From: a virus | Length of the DNA: 64,000 nucleotides | Strand: one strand, 5' to 3' | Virus record (IMG/VR): IMGVR_UViG_3300000553_000014 | Span: 24,303 to 88,302 of that record | Part shown: piece by piece, positions 25,132 through 38,148 of the stretch | Numbering within the stretch: position 1 is the first letter of the stretch | How the letters are laid out: every line of letters starts with the position of its first letter | Position numbers and translations under genes: made by a program | Notes under the pieces: model-generated | What the model saw: the letters and a program-made list of their open reading frames with translations, nothing else | Database searches by the model: none | Told to the model about the DNA's origin: nothing

Positions 25132-25142
25132 AATTAATTTTT

Positions 25143-25313
25143 ATGATATTACTAATATGGTTTTTTACAGTTATTGGTTATATTATATTTATTTTTTGGA
25201 AAATTAGTTTATTTAAACAATATTCGGTATTAAAAATACTGAATAATATTCATTCACATTATAATTTTATCAAATCTCTGAGGGGTGGGAATGTGCTCAG
25301 AGATTATGGATAG
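25143..25313 (+). CDS. Small membrane protein, 56 aa
   Basis: An ORF with a good ATG 11 bases after the previous stop. Residues 2-19 (ILLIWFFTVIGYIIFIFW) are a membrane segment; the rest is a basic cytoplasmic-type tail. The 3' end contains an 8-bp inverted repeat (TCTCTGAG...CTCAGAGA, about 25,274-25,304). No family recognised. Confidence 0.55.
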   Translation: MILLIWFFTVIGYIIFIFWKISLFKQYSVLKILNNIHSHYNFIKSLRGGNVLRDYG

Positions 25314-25378
25314 ATAGACTGAGTTAACTTAGAAATATATTTTAACTGAACATTTATTAACATTAAAAATTGTAGAAT

Positions 25379-25555
25379 ATGTGTAGTATTTTAGATTTAG
25401 TGAATGAATTAACTTTGGTATTAGAAAATCAAATTAAACAACTTTTATGTAATGTCATTGAAATTGTGATTTTATCAACCAACATTATTTCCAAAAAATT
25501 ATATTTTATATTCTTTGAGCACAATTACACTTATTGCTCATTCGAATATGGTTAG
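25379..25555 (+). CDS. Possible small protein, 58 aa
   Basis: An ATG-initiated open frame of 58 codons, longer than expected by chance in DNA this AT-rich. The product would be mostly hydrophobic and helical (LDLVNELTLVLENQI...NVIEIVILSTNII). No promoter motif or family support, so the call is tentative. Confidence 0.35.
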   Translation: MCSILDLVNELTLVLENQIKQLLCNVIEIVILSTNIISKKLYFIFFEHNYTYCSFEYG

Positions 25556-25618
25556 TAGCTTATAATTTAATAGAATAAATAATTTTAAATATATAAAGAA
25601 TAAAAATTTTTTAAAAAT

Positions 25619-25660
25619 AAAATCCTCTGAATTTTGAAATTAAAAAATTCAGAGGATTTT
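25619..25660. terminator. Perfect 17-bp-arm hairpin, terminator-like
   Basis: Arms with core TCCTCTGAATTTT / AAAATTCAGAGGA are perfectly complementary over 17 bp with an 8-base loop, then TTTTCTT. It directly abuts, and its 3' end overlaps, the tRNA-like element at 25,656. Confidence 0.7.
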
Positions 25661-25711
25661 CTTAAAAGAAATTCAGTTGGTGAATATAATGGTTCGAATC
25701 CATTTTTCTTA
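25656..25711 (+). tRNA. tRNA-like element, 3' half of a Leu(UAA)-type tRNA
   Basis: The T arm is convincing: stem AATGG/CCATT around loop TTCGAAT (25,688-25,704). Upstream, ATTTT-CTTAAAA-GAAAT (25,656-25,672) can form a 5-bp anticodon arm with U33 and anticodon TAA (Leu). TTCAGTTGGTGAA (25,673-25,685) forms a hairpin like a class II variable arm. TTTCTTA would be the 3' acceptor strand. No matching 5' acceptor strand or D arm is found: the perfect hairpin at 25,619 occupies that place. An alternative fold pairs AAGAAA (25,666) with TTTCTT, giving a 47-base element with no anticodon arm. It may be a degraded tRNA or a tRNA mimic. Confidence 0.35.
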
Positions 25712-25733
25712 CAAATTAAATATCGAAAATAAA

Positions 25734-26336
25734 ATGAAACACCCAAACTCAACATATAGTGATTTTATTAATTCATTAATGAAATTAAGAAGAGATTCAT
25801 TAATATTAAAACAATCATCAAATAAAGCTATCTTAGTTTTAAATATTGATAATACTCAAATAACTTTTAATACAACACAAATGTGTTGGAAAGTTATTTC
25901 AATTAATGAAAAATTAAATTTTGAAAATTGGAATCCTGAAATTAATAAAGTAATAGAATTTCTTGATAATTTTGAAGAATACCAAATATTAATTGCTATA
26001 CAAGATTTTGAAGACCAATCAAATGAAAATTTATCAAAACTTGATGGAACAATACTTATTACAAAATGTTTACAAATATTAGATTTGTTAAAAAATCCTG
26101 AAAATGATATTATTCCAGCTCCTGAAATTAATCTCAAAACAACTGAAAATAACAATTATTCAATATTTTATGATTTTAAAACAGAAATGTATAATGTAAC
26201 AAGTGATAATGATATTGCTAATTATAGCACTCCAAATGATTTTATTCCAAATTTATTAAAACTTTGTACTTATACAGAAGTTTCAAAAGCATTAAATAAT
26301 TGTTATATTAATCAAAAAATACATATTAAACATTAA
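25734..26336 (+). CDS. Hypothetical protein, 200 aa
   Basis: Start chosen at the ATG at 25,734, preceded by an A-rich leader (cgaaaataaa). In-frame upstream starts (TTG 25,677; ATG 25,689) would place the N-terminus inside the tRNA-like element. Beta-rich segments (KAILVLNIDNTQITFN, CWKVISIN) alternate with helices. No family recognised. Followed after 1 base by the radical-SAM-like gene. Confidence 0.65.
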   Translation: MKHPNSTYSDFINSLMKLRRDSLILKQSSNKAILVLNIDNTQITFNTTQMCWKVISINEKLNFENWNPEINKVIEFLDNFEEYQILIAIQDFEDQSNENLSKLDGTILITKCLQILDLLKNPENDIIPAPEINLKTTENNNYSIFYDFKTEMYNVTSDNDIANYSTPNDFIPNLLKLCTYTEVSKALNNCYINQKIHIKH

Positions 26337-27879: not shown

Positions 27880-28467
27880 ATGTCAAAAACAAACGACGCA
27901 AATGAAAGCGAAAACGCTTTAACTGATGGTTTAGAAGCAGCTACAACAACCACAGAAACAACAACTGATGCAACAACAACTGATGCAACAACAAAAGTAA
28001 AAAAAGAACAAACTCCTGAAGAACTTGCTGTAATTACAGCCGGTATTGCAAAAATTAAAGAATTTGGAGTATCTGAAAAATTCGCAAAAGTTATGGACAC
28101 TCTTTGTCCTGCTTGGAATGATACTGATAAAGATACTTTAACAGCAAGAAAAGAAGAAGTTATTAAGGAATTTGGTGGTTCAGAAGCTTTAAAAGATTAT
28201 GTTGACACAGATTTCCAAAAAGAATTACAAGCAATTCAAGGAACTGCAAAAGTTGCATCAATCTTAAATAACATTAAGAGTTTTTATGCAAGAAGAACTT
28301 CTACTGGTAAGACAAAAACTGTTCAGGTTAATATTAGTGGAACATTATATAATGTTGATGCTGCATATTATGCTGAAATTTCTTCACAACCAAAAGATGT
28401 TAAAAAGGAATTGTTACTTGCTCATGCTGGTACAGTTGAAGCAACAAACATTTGCGAAATTCTTTAA
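27880..28467 (+). CDS. Paralogous family protein with Thr-rich linker, 195 aa
   Basis: Start at the ATG (an in-frame TTG lies 6 bases upstream). An acidic N-terminus and a Thr-rich linker (TTTTETTTDATTTDATT) lead to a helical domain, then a C-terminal domain VQVNISGTLYNVDAAYYAEI. It aligns by eye with the gene at 36,439: both start MSK, have a Thr-rich linker with (E/D)GLE, and end in the same domain. Codons use more C-ending forms than neighbouring genes, which may mean high expression. Role unknown; it is followed by a 600-base structured non-coding region. Confidence 0.7.
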   Translation: MSKTNDANESENALTDGLEAATTTTETTTDATTTDATTKVKKEQTPEELAVITAGIAKIKEFGVSEKFAKVMDTLCPAWNDTDKDTLTARKEEVIKEFGGSEALKDYVDTDFQKELQAIQGTAKVASILNNIKSFYARRTSTGKTKTVQVNISGTLYNVDAAYYAEISSQPKDVKKELLLAHAGTVEATNICEIL

Positions 28468-28938
28468 TTCCGGGTTATTTATAATCTGCTAAATTTGAAA
28501 AAGTGATTTAATGATTGAGATAATTAATCACAAAAAATTTTTCAAAACTTGATTGGTAGTAATTTTTATTAAGCCATAATTTATATTTTATATAATCAAT
28601 CAATTTATAACTTCAAATTTCTCAATTAGTTCAATCAATTTGCCTCTGGTTATTCGATTTGCATTTATCGATTTTTTGCTTGGCGTGTCATATATGTGTT
28701 ATTTTAATAAACTAATTATTTGAAGTTATTTGTTTTTAATATTTGTTTAGAATTTACCTATTGTGTATTATTCATATTGCTGCTATATTGCTGCTTGAAA
28801 TTTTAAATTTATTTTGAATTTCTGAATTTTACTGGTTTATTCACTACTTATATTGGGTGAGAGTTAACTTAAAAAAATGTAGGACTGTGTCCTGAGTCTC
28901 TCAATAGAAATACCCGCAATCAAAAAGTTTTCTGGTTA

Positions 28939-28992
28939 GGGGGAAAATGGATATGGAAAATATTTTGTATGGTTCGAATCCATACTCCCTCA
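28939..28992 (+). tRNA. tRNA-like domain without anticodon arm
   Basis: TATGG-TTCGAAT-CCATA (28,968-28,984) is a canonical T arm. GGGGGA (28,939) pairs with TCCCTC (28,986), giving a 6-bp acceptor-like stem. The 23 bases between hold TGGATATGGA, reminiscent of the TGGATTCGAC loop of tmRNA, and a small AAAAT/ATTTT helix, but no anticodon arm. An alternative 5' strand is GGGTGAG at 28,855 (6 of 7 pairs with CTCCCTC). It lies within the 3' part of the structured RNA. A functional tRNA is unlikely; a tRNA-like end or remnant is more probable. Confidence 0.35.
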
Positions 28993-29042
28993 CGAAATTT
29001 GTATTATAATTTCTCTATCACATCCTGGTATCTGTGTAAGTT

Positions 29043-29075
29043 AAAGGAAATCAATTAATTTTGGTTTCCTTTTTT
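29043..29075 (+). terminator. Hairpin terminator after the structured RNA
   Basis: AAAGGAAATCAATT pairs with AATTTTGGTTTCCTTT (with G-T pairs), followed by T6. Confidence 0.7.
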
Positions 29076-29088
29076 ATTTTCATTTGAA

Positions 29089-29121
29089 TGCTCATTTTTT
29101 CATAAAATAATGGATATAAAT
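29089..29121 (+). promoter_or_regulatory. Phage-type promoter motif
   Basis: TGCTCATTTTTTCATAAAAT at 29089, then AATGGATATAAATAATATT; it matches the consensus almost perfectly. Confidence 0.75.
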
Positions 29122-29255
29122 AATATTATAAATAATAAATAAATTTAATATTCAAAATGAAAAGATATAAATAATTTTCAGAAATTGAACAAGAAATTTC
29201 TGAAGAAGAAATCAAAATACAAGAAGCTTTAAAAATTCCTGAAATAATTAAATTT

Positions 29256-29510
29256 TTGGAAAATCTTAATATTGAAAACTTTTATTCTGACCTTGAAGGA
29301 ATTTTTATTCCAGAAGTTAGAGTATTATCTGCTGATGATACTTCATTTTATTTTAATGTTGGAAAATATATTTCAAAAGATGAAACAAATTTCATCAAAT
29401 GGTATGATTCTTTAGATGAAGATTATAAATTAAATATTATCAATGAAGCTTTGACTGAAGGTATTGTAGACAAAATTAAAAAAGATTTAAATATTATTAT
29501 TGAATGGTAA
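29256..29510 (+). CDS. Hypothetical protein, 84 aa from TTG; likely 3' part of an interrupted gene
   Basis: The natural start appears to be the ATG at 29,157, 36 bases after the promoter motif, but its sixth codon is TAA (29,172). The same frame then stays open from 29,175 to 29,510 and reads as ordinary protein (SEIEQEISEEEIKIQEALK...). Only a TTG at 29,256 could restart it. A CAA-to-TAA change would explain this. So it may be a decayed gene, a sequencing error, a readthrough site, or a gene restarted internally. No family recognised. Confidence 0.5.
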   Translation: MENLNIENFYSDLEGIFIPEVRVLSADDTSFYFNVGKYISKDETNFIKWYDSLDEDYKLNIINEALTEGIVDKIKKDLNIIIEW

Positions 29511-35766: not shown

Positions 35767-35800
35767 ATATATATCCATAATTTTTGCGAAATATGAGATA
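35767..35800 (-). promoter_or_regulatory. Phage-type promoter motif, leftward
   Basis: Read leftward: ATTTCGCAAAAATTATGGAT followed by ATATATAA. The downstream box is canonical, the upstream box degenerate. The only leftward copy found. Confidence 0.6.
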
Positions 35801-35810
35801 TTTGGAAAAT

Positions 35811-35908
35811 AACGCACCAGTAAATATAACATATATAATGTATATAAAAATTTTGTAGGTTATTACTCTTATATATTAAAAATATATTATATGTATTTAC
35901 TGGTGCGT
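35811..35908. repeat. CGYACCAG/CTGGTRCG inverted-repeat element, copy 2
   Basis: ACGCACCAGTAAATATA ... TATTTACTGGTGCGT; the whole unit can fold into one long hairpin. Nearly identical to copy 3. Confidence 0.8.
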
Positions 35909-35915
35909 TTATATT

Positions 35916-36012
35916 ACGTACCAGTAAATATAGCATATATAATGTGTATATAAATTTTGTAGGTTATTACTCTTATATATTAAAAATATACTATATGTAT
36001 TTACTGGTACGT
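35916..36012. repeat. CGYACCAG/CTGGTRCG inverted-repeat element, copy 3
   Basis: ACGTACCAGTAAATATA ... TATTTACTGGTACGT, 7 bases after copy 2 and differing from it at a handful of positions. Compensating C/T and G/A differences at the two ends keep the pairing. Confidence 0.8.
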
Positions 36013-36069
36013 ATTAGTTAATTTTATCCTGAAATTGTATAAATATTGGTATTTTGGTATTATAAGTAA

Positions 36070-36225
36070 ACGTACCAGCATATATAGATATTTAATATTA
36101 ACGTACCAGTAAAATATCTCCAAAATTATTATATATGGTATTTATCAAGGTATTTACCTTATTATAATAATATATTATATAATTTACTGGTACGTTTATT
36201 ATTATACTATTGATTACTGGTACGT
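36070..36225. repeat. Nested inverted-repeat elements (copy 4 within copy 5)
   Basis: Outer ends ACGTACCAG (36,070) and CTGGTACGT (36,217) enclose a complete inner unit, ACGTACCAGTAAA (36,101) to TTTACTGGTACGT (36,195). The outer unit's two remaining pieces are about 30 bases each. Confidence 0.75.
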
Positions 36226-36249
36226 TTGGTTTGAACTTATTTTTCGATT

Positions 36250-37212: not shown

Positions 37213-37306
37213 TACGTACCAGTAAATAATGATATTTTCAAGATATATAAAATTGAGTGGACAATACTCAAGATACTAAAGAAAATTCAATAATTTACTG
37301 GTGCGT
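37213..37306. repeat. CGYACCAG/CTGGTRCG inverted-repeat element, copy 6
   Basis: TACGTACCAGTAAATAATG ... AATAATTTACTGGTGCG. The interior contains a small hairpin TTGAG/CTCAA. Nearly identical to copy 8 at 37,858. Confidence 0.8.
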
Positions 37307-37388
37307 TTTGTTATATAGATATTTAATATAATTTGTAATAATAATATATAAAACTAATCGTACCTGTAATATATTGATATAGAAGTAA

Positions 37389-37484
37389 TCGCACCAGAAA
37401 ATATTATGAAAAAATGACTCATATAATAAAAGTAAGCATATATTCAAGATAAAAGAATAAAAAGAGATAATTTGCTGGTGCGTT
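37389..37484. repeat. CGYACCAG/CTGGTRCG inverted-repeat element, copy 7
   Basis: TCGCACCAGAAAATAT ... ATAATTTGCTGGTGCGT. A partial sequence TCGTACCTGTAATAT lies just before it (37,359), like the left end of another decayed unit. Confidence 0.7.
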
Positions 37485-37495
37485 AATTATGCTTT

Positions 37496-37843: not shown

Positions 37844-37857
37844 ATATATTAAACATT

Positions 37858-37950
37858 ACGCACCAGCAAATAATGATATTTTCAAGATATATAAAATTGA
37901 GTGGACAATACTCAAGATACTAAAGAAAATTCAATAATTTACTGGTGCGT
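37858..37950. repeat. CGYACCAG/CTGGTRCG inverted-repeat element, copy 8
   Basis: ACGCACCAGCAAATAATG ... AATAATTTACTGGTGCGT. With the 92 bases after it, it repeats 37,213-37,397 with about three differences. Confidence 0.8.
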
Positions 37951-38032
37951 TTTGTTATATAGATATTTAATATAATTTGTAATAATAATACATAAAACTA
38001 ATCGTACCTGTAATATATTGATATAGAAGTAA

Positions 38033-38126
38033 TCGCACCAGGTATAAAGTGTATATTTTGAGTTATATGATAAAAACAAGCATATACTCAAGGAAAAAAA
38101 ATAAAAAGATATAATTTTCTGGTACG
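38033..38126. repeat. CGYACCAG/CTGGTRCG inverted-repeat element, copy 9
   Basis: TCGCACCAGGTATAAAG ... ATATAATTTTCTGGTACG. The counterpart of copy 7, but more diverged on its right side. Confidence 0.7.
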
Positions 38127-38148
38127 TTATTTTCGAATTAACTCAGTT

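Follow-up and report, generated by a model that had tools for sequence, protein, structure and literature searches.

A candidate RNA island in a large phage and its relatives, with a conserved core placed before a tRNA slot

Introduction

ROOL and GOLLD are phage RNAs that lie near tRNA islands and whose functions are poorly understood, and in GOLLD the 3' part is conserved and the 5' part less so (PMC12286853). The locus analyzed here is a gap between genes in a 64,000-nucleotide stretch of viral DNA (hereafter the window). In size and phage origin it resembles ROOL (RF03087), an RNA of about 600 nt from phages and prophages that is often found near tRNA islands, and it resembles GOLLD (RF02032) as a candidate phage RNA near tRNAs with a conserved 3' part and a less conserved 5' part. 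However, the ROOL covariance model matches neither the window record nor its relatives, the GOLLD model gives no match here, and the conserved part is only about 85 nt, far smaller than that of GOLLD.

The transfer-messenger RNA (tmRNA; RF00023, RF04321) shares with this locus the upper half of a tRNA, and a genuine tmRNA stands in the corresponding island of one relative (G002), with a permuted one elsewhere in another (G003); in the window, in contrast, neither the tmRNA model nor ARAGORN finds a tmRNA gene, and in a third relative (G001) the core and the tRNA are separate units. The mascRNA of MALAT1 is a tRNA-like processing signal of a long RNA. The likeness here is a tRNA-like shape 3' of a putative long non-coding RNA, but the setting is that of a phage and its bacterial host, a minihelix alone is left, and the processing is something we infer.

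Results

A syntenic candidate RNA island behind a shared gene

The window comes from a virus record of 88,302 bases, and the G+C content around the gap is roughly 18-31%. The record encodes a portal protein, NAD-dependent ligase, helicase, ribonucleotide reductase and DNA polymerase, of which the portal and helicase suggest large phages like PAU, PTm1, pT24, MA9V and Lak, a number of these coming from Bacteroidota. The features of the locus are as follows.

27880..28467, + strand: upstream gene, 195 aa, unknown function; syntenic anchor of the putative RNA island
28494..28546, + strand: 5' hairpin with a 9-bp closing stem and inner stems (fold z -2.4; not found conserved)
28607..28729, + strand: long-range helix of 12+8 pairs with a 5-nt bulge (minimum-energy fold; not found conserved)
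28856..28940, + strand: conserved core, about 85 nt, with helices P1 (28858-28863/28898-28903), P2 (hairpin, 28882-28885/28889-28892) and P3 (28918-28922/28933-28937)
28939..28992, + strand: tRNA-like remnant with acceptor (28939-28944/28986-28991, one G-U), T arm (28968-28984) and discriminator A28992, without D or anticodon arm
29043..29072, + strand: intrinsic terminator, 12 pairs and a T run (hairpin z -5.7)
29112..29122, + strand: T4-type late-promoter-like GGATATAAATA, directly 3' of the terminator, for the next gene

The gap (28468-29077) had been described as nearly 600 bases free of genes, and indeed from the stop at 28467 to the terminator no open reading frame exceeds 31 aa, except for the tail of an out-of-frame one that lies within the upstream gene.

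Four related records were found, of which G001 and G002 (68 kb each) are colinear with the window, with proteins mostly 30-72% identical, and G003 (178 kb) and G004 (208 kb) are more distant. The upstream gene is 50-53% identical in G001 and G002 (53% at the protein level in G001) and more distant in G003 and G004; a search of genome contigs returned no relative of it. Behind this gene lie about 940 nt of non-coding sequence in G001, in the order RNA1 (L002:5550-6100), core, tRNA-Gln and terminator, and about 2.4 kb in G002, in the order tmRNA, RNA1 (L003:6078-6625), core, tRNA-Glu, a 29-bit tRNA-like element, tRNA-Asn and tRNA-Gln. The three loci make up a single candidate RNA island in synteny behind the shared gene, of which only the core and a tRNA-like remnant are still recognizable in the window; no tRNA was found in the window record, and the island tRNAs are present in the relatives only. 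An RNA locus of the kind found near tRNA genes had been proposed for the gap, and membership of such an island is supported by the relatives' synteny, their core and the tRNA downstream of it; membership of the ROOL/GOLLD class is not supported.

The tmRNA of G002 (L003:5632-6077) is of the standard form with the tag AMSKWNEVDETPVYSINRSQLAMAV, and that of G003 (L042:9908-10239) is permuted, with the tag GNNYEMRAAA. The 29-bit tRNA-like element of G002 (L003:7141-7231) has a long AT-rich hairpin in place of the anticodon arm.

Folding of the gap and of RNA1

Locally, the helices of the initial annotation were recovered with some corrections: its 20-bp long-range helix (28607-28631 with 28710-28729) appears in the minimum-energy fold as the 12+8 pairs listed above, and its 15-bp hairpin at 28494-28546 is present as 9+3+7 pairs interrupted by internal loops rather than as a 15-bp stem. 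A perfect 12-bp helix was produced by 1 of 60 shuffles. Compared with dinucleotide shuffles, the whole region has a fold z-score of -1.95 with the terminator and -1.39 without it, and 573-nt coding windows of the same stretch, used as controls, span z +0.64 to -3.76. The region without its terminator folds no better than shuffles and is unremarkable as one RNA; the case for a functional RNA therefore rests on other evidence than folding energy. The idea of a single large, ornate RNA in this gap is weak (z -1.4 without terminator, within the range of the coding controls), and that description fits RNA1 of G001 and G002 instead.

RNA1 is homologous between G001 and G002 (z 6.0), with colinear copies of about 548 nt each, and the G001 copy folds with z -9.5. 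Their alignment contains several pairs changed on both sides, and 2 of 40 column shuffles fold equally well. RNA1 had no match in Rfam, and a pattern search for it gave chance sites only outside G001 and G002; neither pairwise alignment nor an RNA1 profile run against the window detected a counterpart there. The case for a new large ornate phage RNA is stronger for RNA1 than for the window region.

Known RNA families and database searches

A diverged ROOL, GOLLD, tmRNA or other known class might be suspected from the size, phage origin and tRNA linkage, which are like those of ROOL and GOLLD (PMC12286853), and from the true tmRNA in the G002 island. This is highly improbable, as the models for ROOL, GOLLD and tmRNA find nothing in the window record and the window, G001 and G002 have no Rfam match beyond tRNA and tmRNA, relaxed thresholds included. 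In the window itself, Rfam gave chance matches only at both gathering and relaxed thresholds, and no family was assigned; the suggested membership of ROOL or GOLLD likewise finds no support from the single-family models RF03087 (run without a positive control) and RF02032. The known-class reading is thus largely refuted at the sensitivity of covariance models, that for ROOL being the one without a positive control.

At the nucleotide level, a search of 50,697 phages returned weak AT-rich pieces and tRNA T arms only, and the G001 RNA had no match. Core patterns were found in viral contigs at G001 and at chance sites only, and not at all in 84,980 bacterial and archaeal genomes. The core model gave best E-values of 0.15 to 1 in six jumbo phages (PAU, PTm1, LR756500, MA9V-1, pT24 and Lak-B5), and these matches were taken as chance because the two that were checked overlap annotated genes.

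A conserved core before the tRNA slot

The core is far better conserved than its surroundings. Against G001 (L002:6212-6300) it aligns with a score of 56 (200 shuffles: mean 20.4, sd 2.8, maximum 30), and an independent test with composition-weighted scoring gives z 7.5; 67 of 105 alignment columns are identical. The proteins neighboring the core are about 50-60% identical between the two phages, and the gap flanks outside it do not align significantly with G001. The G001 core occupies the same place as in the window, about 25 nt before tRNA-Gln, and across five phage records the core model (R1) has only these two strong sites. Single-base indels between the two cores rule out a shared reading frame, and the core is not protein coding.

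The initial annotation had placed a multibranch region near 28861-28902; pairing is predicted there, but as a single stem (P1) enclosing a hairpin (28882-28892). In a structure-blind global alignment, the window has UGA-GAG/CUC-UCA for P1 and G001 has UGAgGAG/CUCgUCA, with facing insertions on both strands; the P2 hairpin GGA/UCC and P3 AAUCA/UGRUU come next. A MAFFT alignment (A7) of the P1 region gives two compensatory changes in place of the matched insertion, and the putative P1 helix is kept under either alignment. The consensus fold of window and G001 (z -2.05) is mildly better than that of column-shuffled alignments (8 of 300).

A third core member is probable, from sequence comparison, in G002 (L003:6725-6760), directly 5' of tRNA-Glu, where GUGA, AAAA and CUGGU are retained and two of the three P2 pairs are altered on both sides, i.e., two compensatory changes. 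Its pairwise score is weak (z 3.8 in one test, not significant in the shuffle-score test), and the core comparison comprises three sequences at most, this being the weak one. A hand-written motif grammar, composed after all three core sequences had been seen, finds these three sites and one chance site in 492 kb on both strands. Another R1 match (L010:9990, E 0.6) was set aside, the site before tRNA-Glu being preferred.

Strong primary-sequence conservation with modest pairing evidence would also be expected of a conserved DNA element, such as a replication, recombination or packaging site. We consider this quite improbable, given the matched insertion in P1 and the double changes in P2, and given that the core keeps the same strand and a fixed place between the upstream gene and the tRNA slot in three phages.

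A tRNA slot possibly reduced to a minihelix

The T arm assigned earlier to 28968-28984 holds up well: there are two copies of GGTTCGANNCC in 64 kb where shuffles predict 0.00, the T stem UAUGG/CCAUA is paired at 5 of 5 positions and the loop UUCGAAU fits TTCRANN. A 7-nt acceptor strand and the discriminator A come next, and with the 5' strand GGGGGAA the acceptor strand forms 6 of 7 pairs; of the tRNA-like 3' domain originally envisaged, T arm and acceptor thus stand and the D and anticodon arms are absent. Between acceptor and T stem there are only 22 nt, so that D and anticodon arms have no room, and neither ARAGORN nor Rfam calls a tRNA at the remnant, where a cloverleaf with these two arms is lacking. 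The tRNA-like fold (acceptor plus T arm, -9.6 kcal/mol) competes with a long irregular hairpin that these bases can also form (-20.5 kcal/mol). Despite this hairpin, more stable by 11 kcal/mol, the sequence is too tRNA-like for chance. A tmRNA-type pairing of 28855-28861 with 28985-28991 (6 of 7) was dropped because the tRNA-Gln of G001 has its own acceptor and the conserved P1 uses that strand.

The main rival to a functional locus is decay, in which an eroding tRNA/RNA island has lost RNA1 and its tRNA to deletion, leaving the core as a residue and the T arm as a tRNA pseudogene. The window record does lack an RNA1 homolog and a tRNA, the tRNA-like element has neither D nor anticodon arm, and the whole-region fold is unremarkable. 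Against decay stand a core that is well conserved while its neighbors have diverged, an intact terminator, a second anticodon-less tRNA-like element elsewhere in the window and the odd anticodon arm of the 29-bit element of G002; on balance we find it rather unlikely.

The terminator and the neighboring genes

The terminator reported at the end of the region was confirmed (29043-29072). With the gap beginning directly after the same gene's stop codon, on the same strand, in three phages and with a terminator at its end, the region could be a cis-regulatory RNA, acting either on the upstream gene as its 3' UTR or an attenuation element, or on the tRNA operon as a leader that controls it. Such a role is improbable: the distance from the gene to the core ranges from about 390 nt in the window to 1.2 kb in G002, with other RNAs between, and in G003 and G004 the gene is retained and immediately followed by a hairpin terminator, the core being absent. 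Moreover, the late-promoter-like site beyond the terminator makes a separate start for the next gene probable. Sites like GGATATAAATA with at most one mismatch number 20 in the window against 5.8 expected (e.g., 29112, 11518 and 38933).

In the next gene (29157-29510) the apparent start MKRYK runs into an in-frame TAA, after which the frame is open (FSEIEQEIS...); this may be a broken gene, a case of read-through or an assembly error.

Elsewhere in the window, a second non-coding gap (25313-25733) holds a strong hairpin (25619-25660) and, near its end and just before the gene starting at 25734, a second tRNA-like element (about 25666-25713) that has an acceptor, a T arm and a D arm of canonical look (TTCAGTTGGTGAA) and lacks an anticodon arm. 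Folded alone, this element is no better than shuffles (z -0.1), the larger gap of 25132-25733, including a 56-aa open reading frame, folds with z -4.4, and at the equivalent place in G001 and G002 the element is absent. Long imperfect palindromes lie between genes at 35790-36230, 37215-37490 and 37850-38130, bounded by (A)CGTACCAGTAAATA / TTTACTGGTACGT, and some are nearly repeated as a unit.

Discussion

Our preferred explanation starts from what is observed directly, namely the synteny, the core conservation, the position of the core before the tRNA slot, the minihelix sequence and the terminator. We propose, at a probability of roughly 45%, that the window locus is this phage's version of an RNA island belonging to a rare clade of large phages, in which the core would be the selected RNA and the tRNA slot a processing signal. 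Transcription continuing beyond the upstream gene would yield an RNA with the core (28856-28940), then the tRNA slot, then the terminator, and cleavage at the slot by tRNA-maturation enzymes (presumably RNase P at its 5' side, and at its 3' side RNase Z or exonucleases) would define where the core RNA ends 3'. The slot, a normal tRNA in G001 and G002, would have shrunk in the window to an acceptor/T-arm minihelix that retains the part read by maturation enzymes and can no longer decode. Transcription, processing and the core RNA as the selected product are all steps that we infer, and the stability of the minihelix, 11 kcal/mol below that of the plain hairpin, counts against this explanation.

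The core P1-P2 directly before a tRNA slot and behind the same upstream gene is found in the window, in G001 and, as a weaker member, in G002, and these likely form a new family of phage RNAs of the tRNA-island type, as judged from sequence. Among known RNAs, ROOL and GOLLD come nearest to it in kind, and the family is proposed as separate from both. It is tempting to go further and suppose a new class of phage RNA operon, consisting of the core RNA and, in the relatives, a 550-nt ornate RNA and a tmRNA, with a 3' end set by anticodon-less minihelices that survive as processing signals only; this we regard as somewhat doubtful. As for a role of the core, its association with tRNAs and tmRNA is where we would look first, that is, at translation during infection.

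ROOL and GOLLD lack a known function, and a second, unrelated RNA set in a fixed syntenic place, here proposed to comprise the short conserved core together with a homologous RNA of 550 nt as its partner, would offer an independent test of what such islands do. If the explanation is true, the minihelix in the tRNA slot would mean that a tRNA slot can persist for RNA processing alone.
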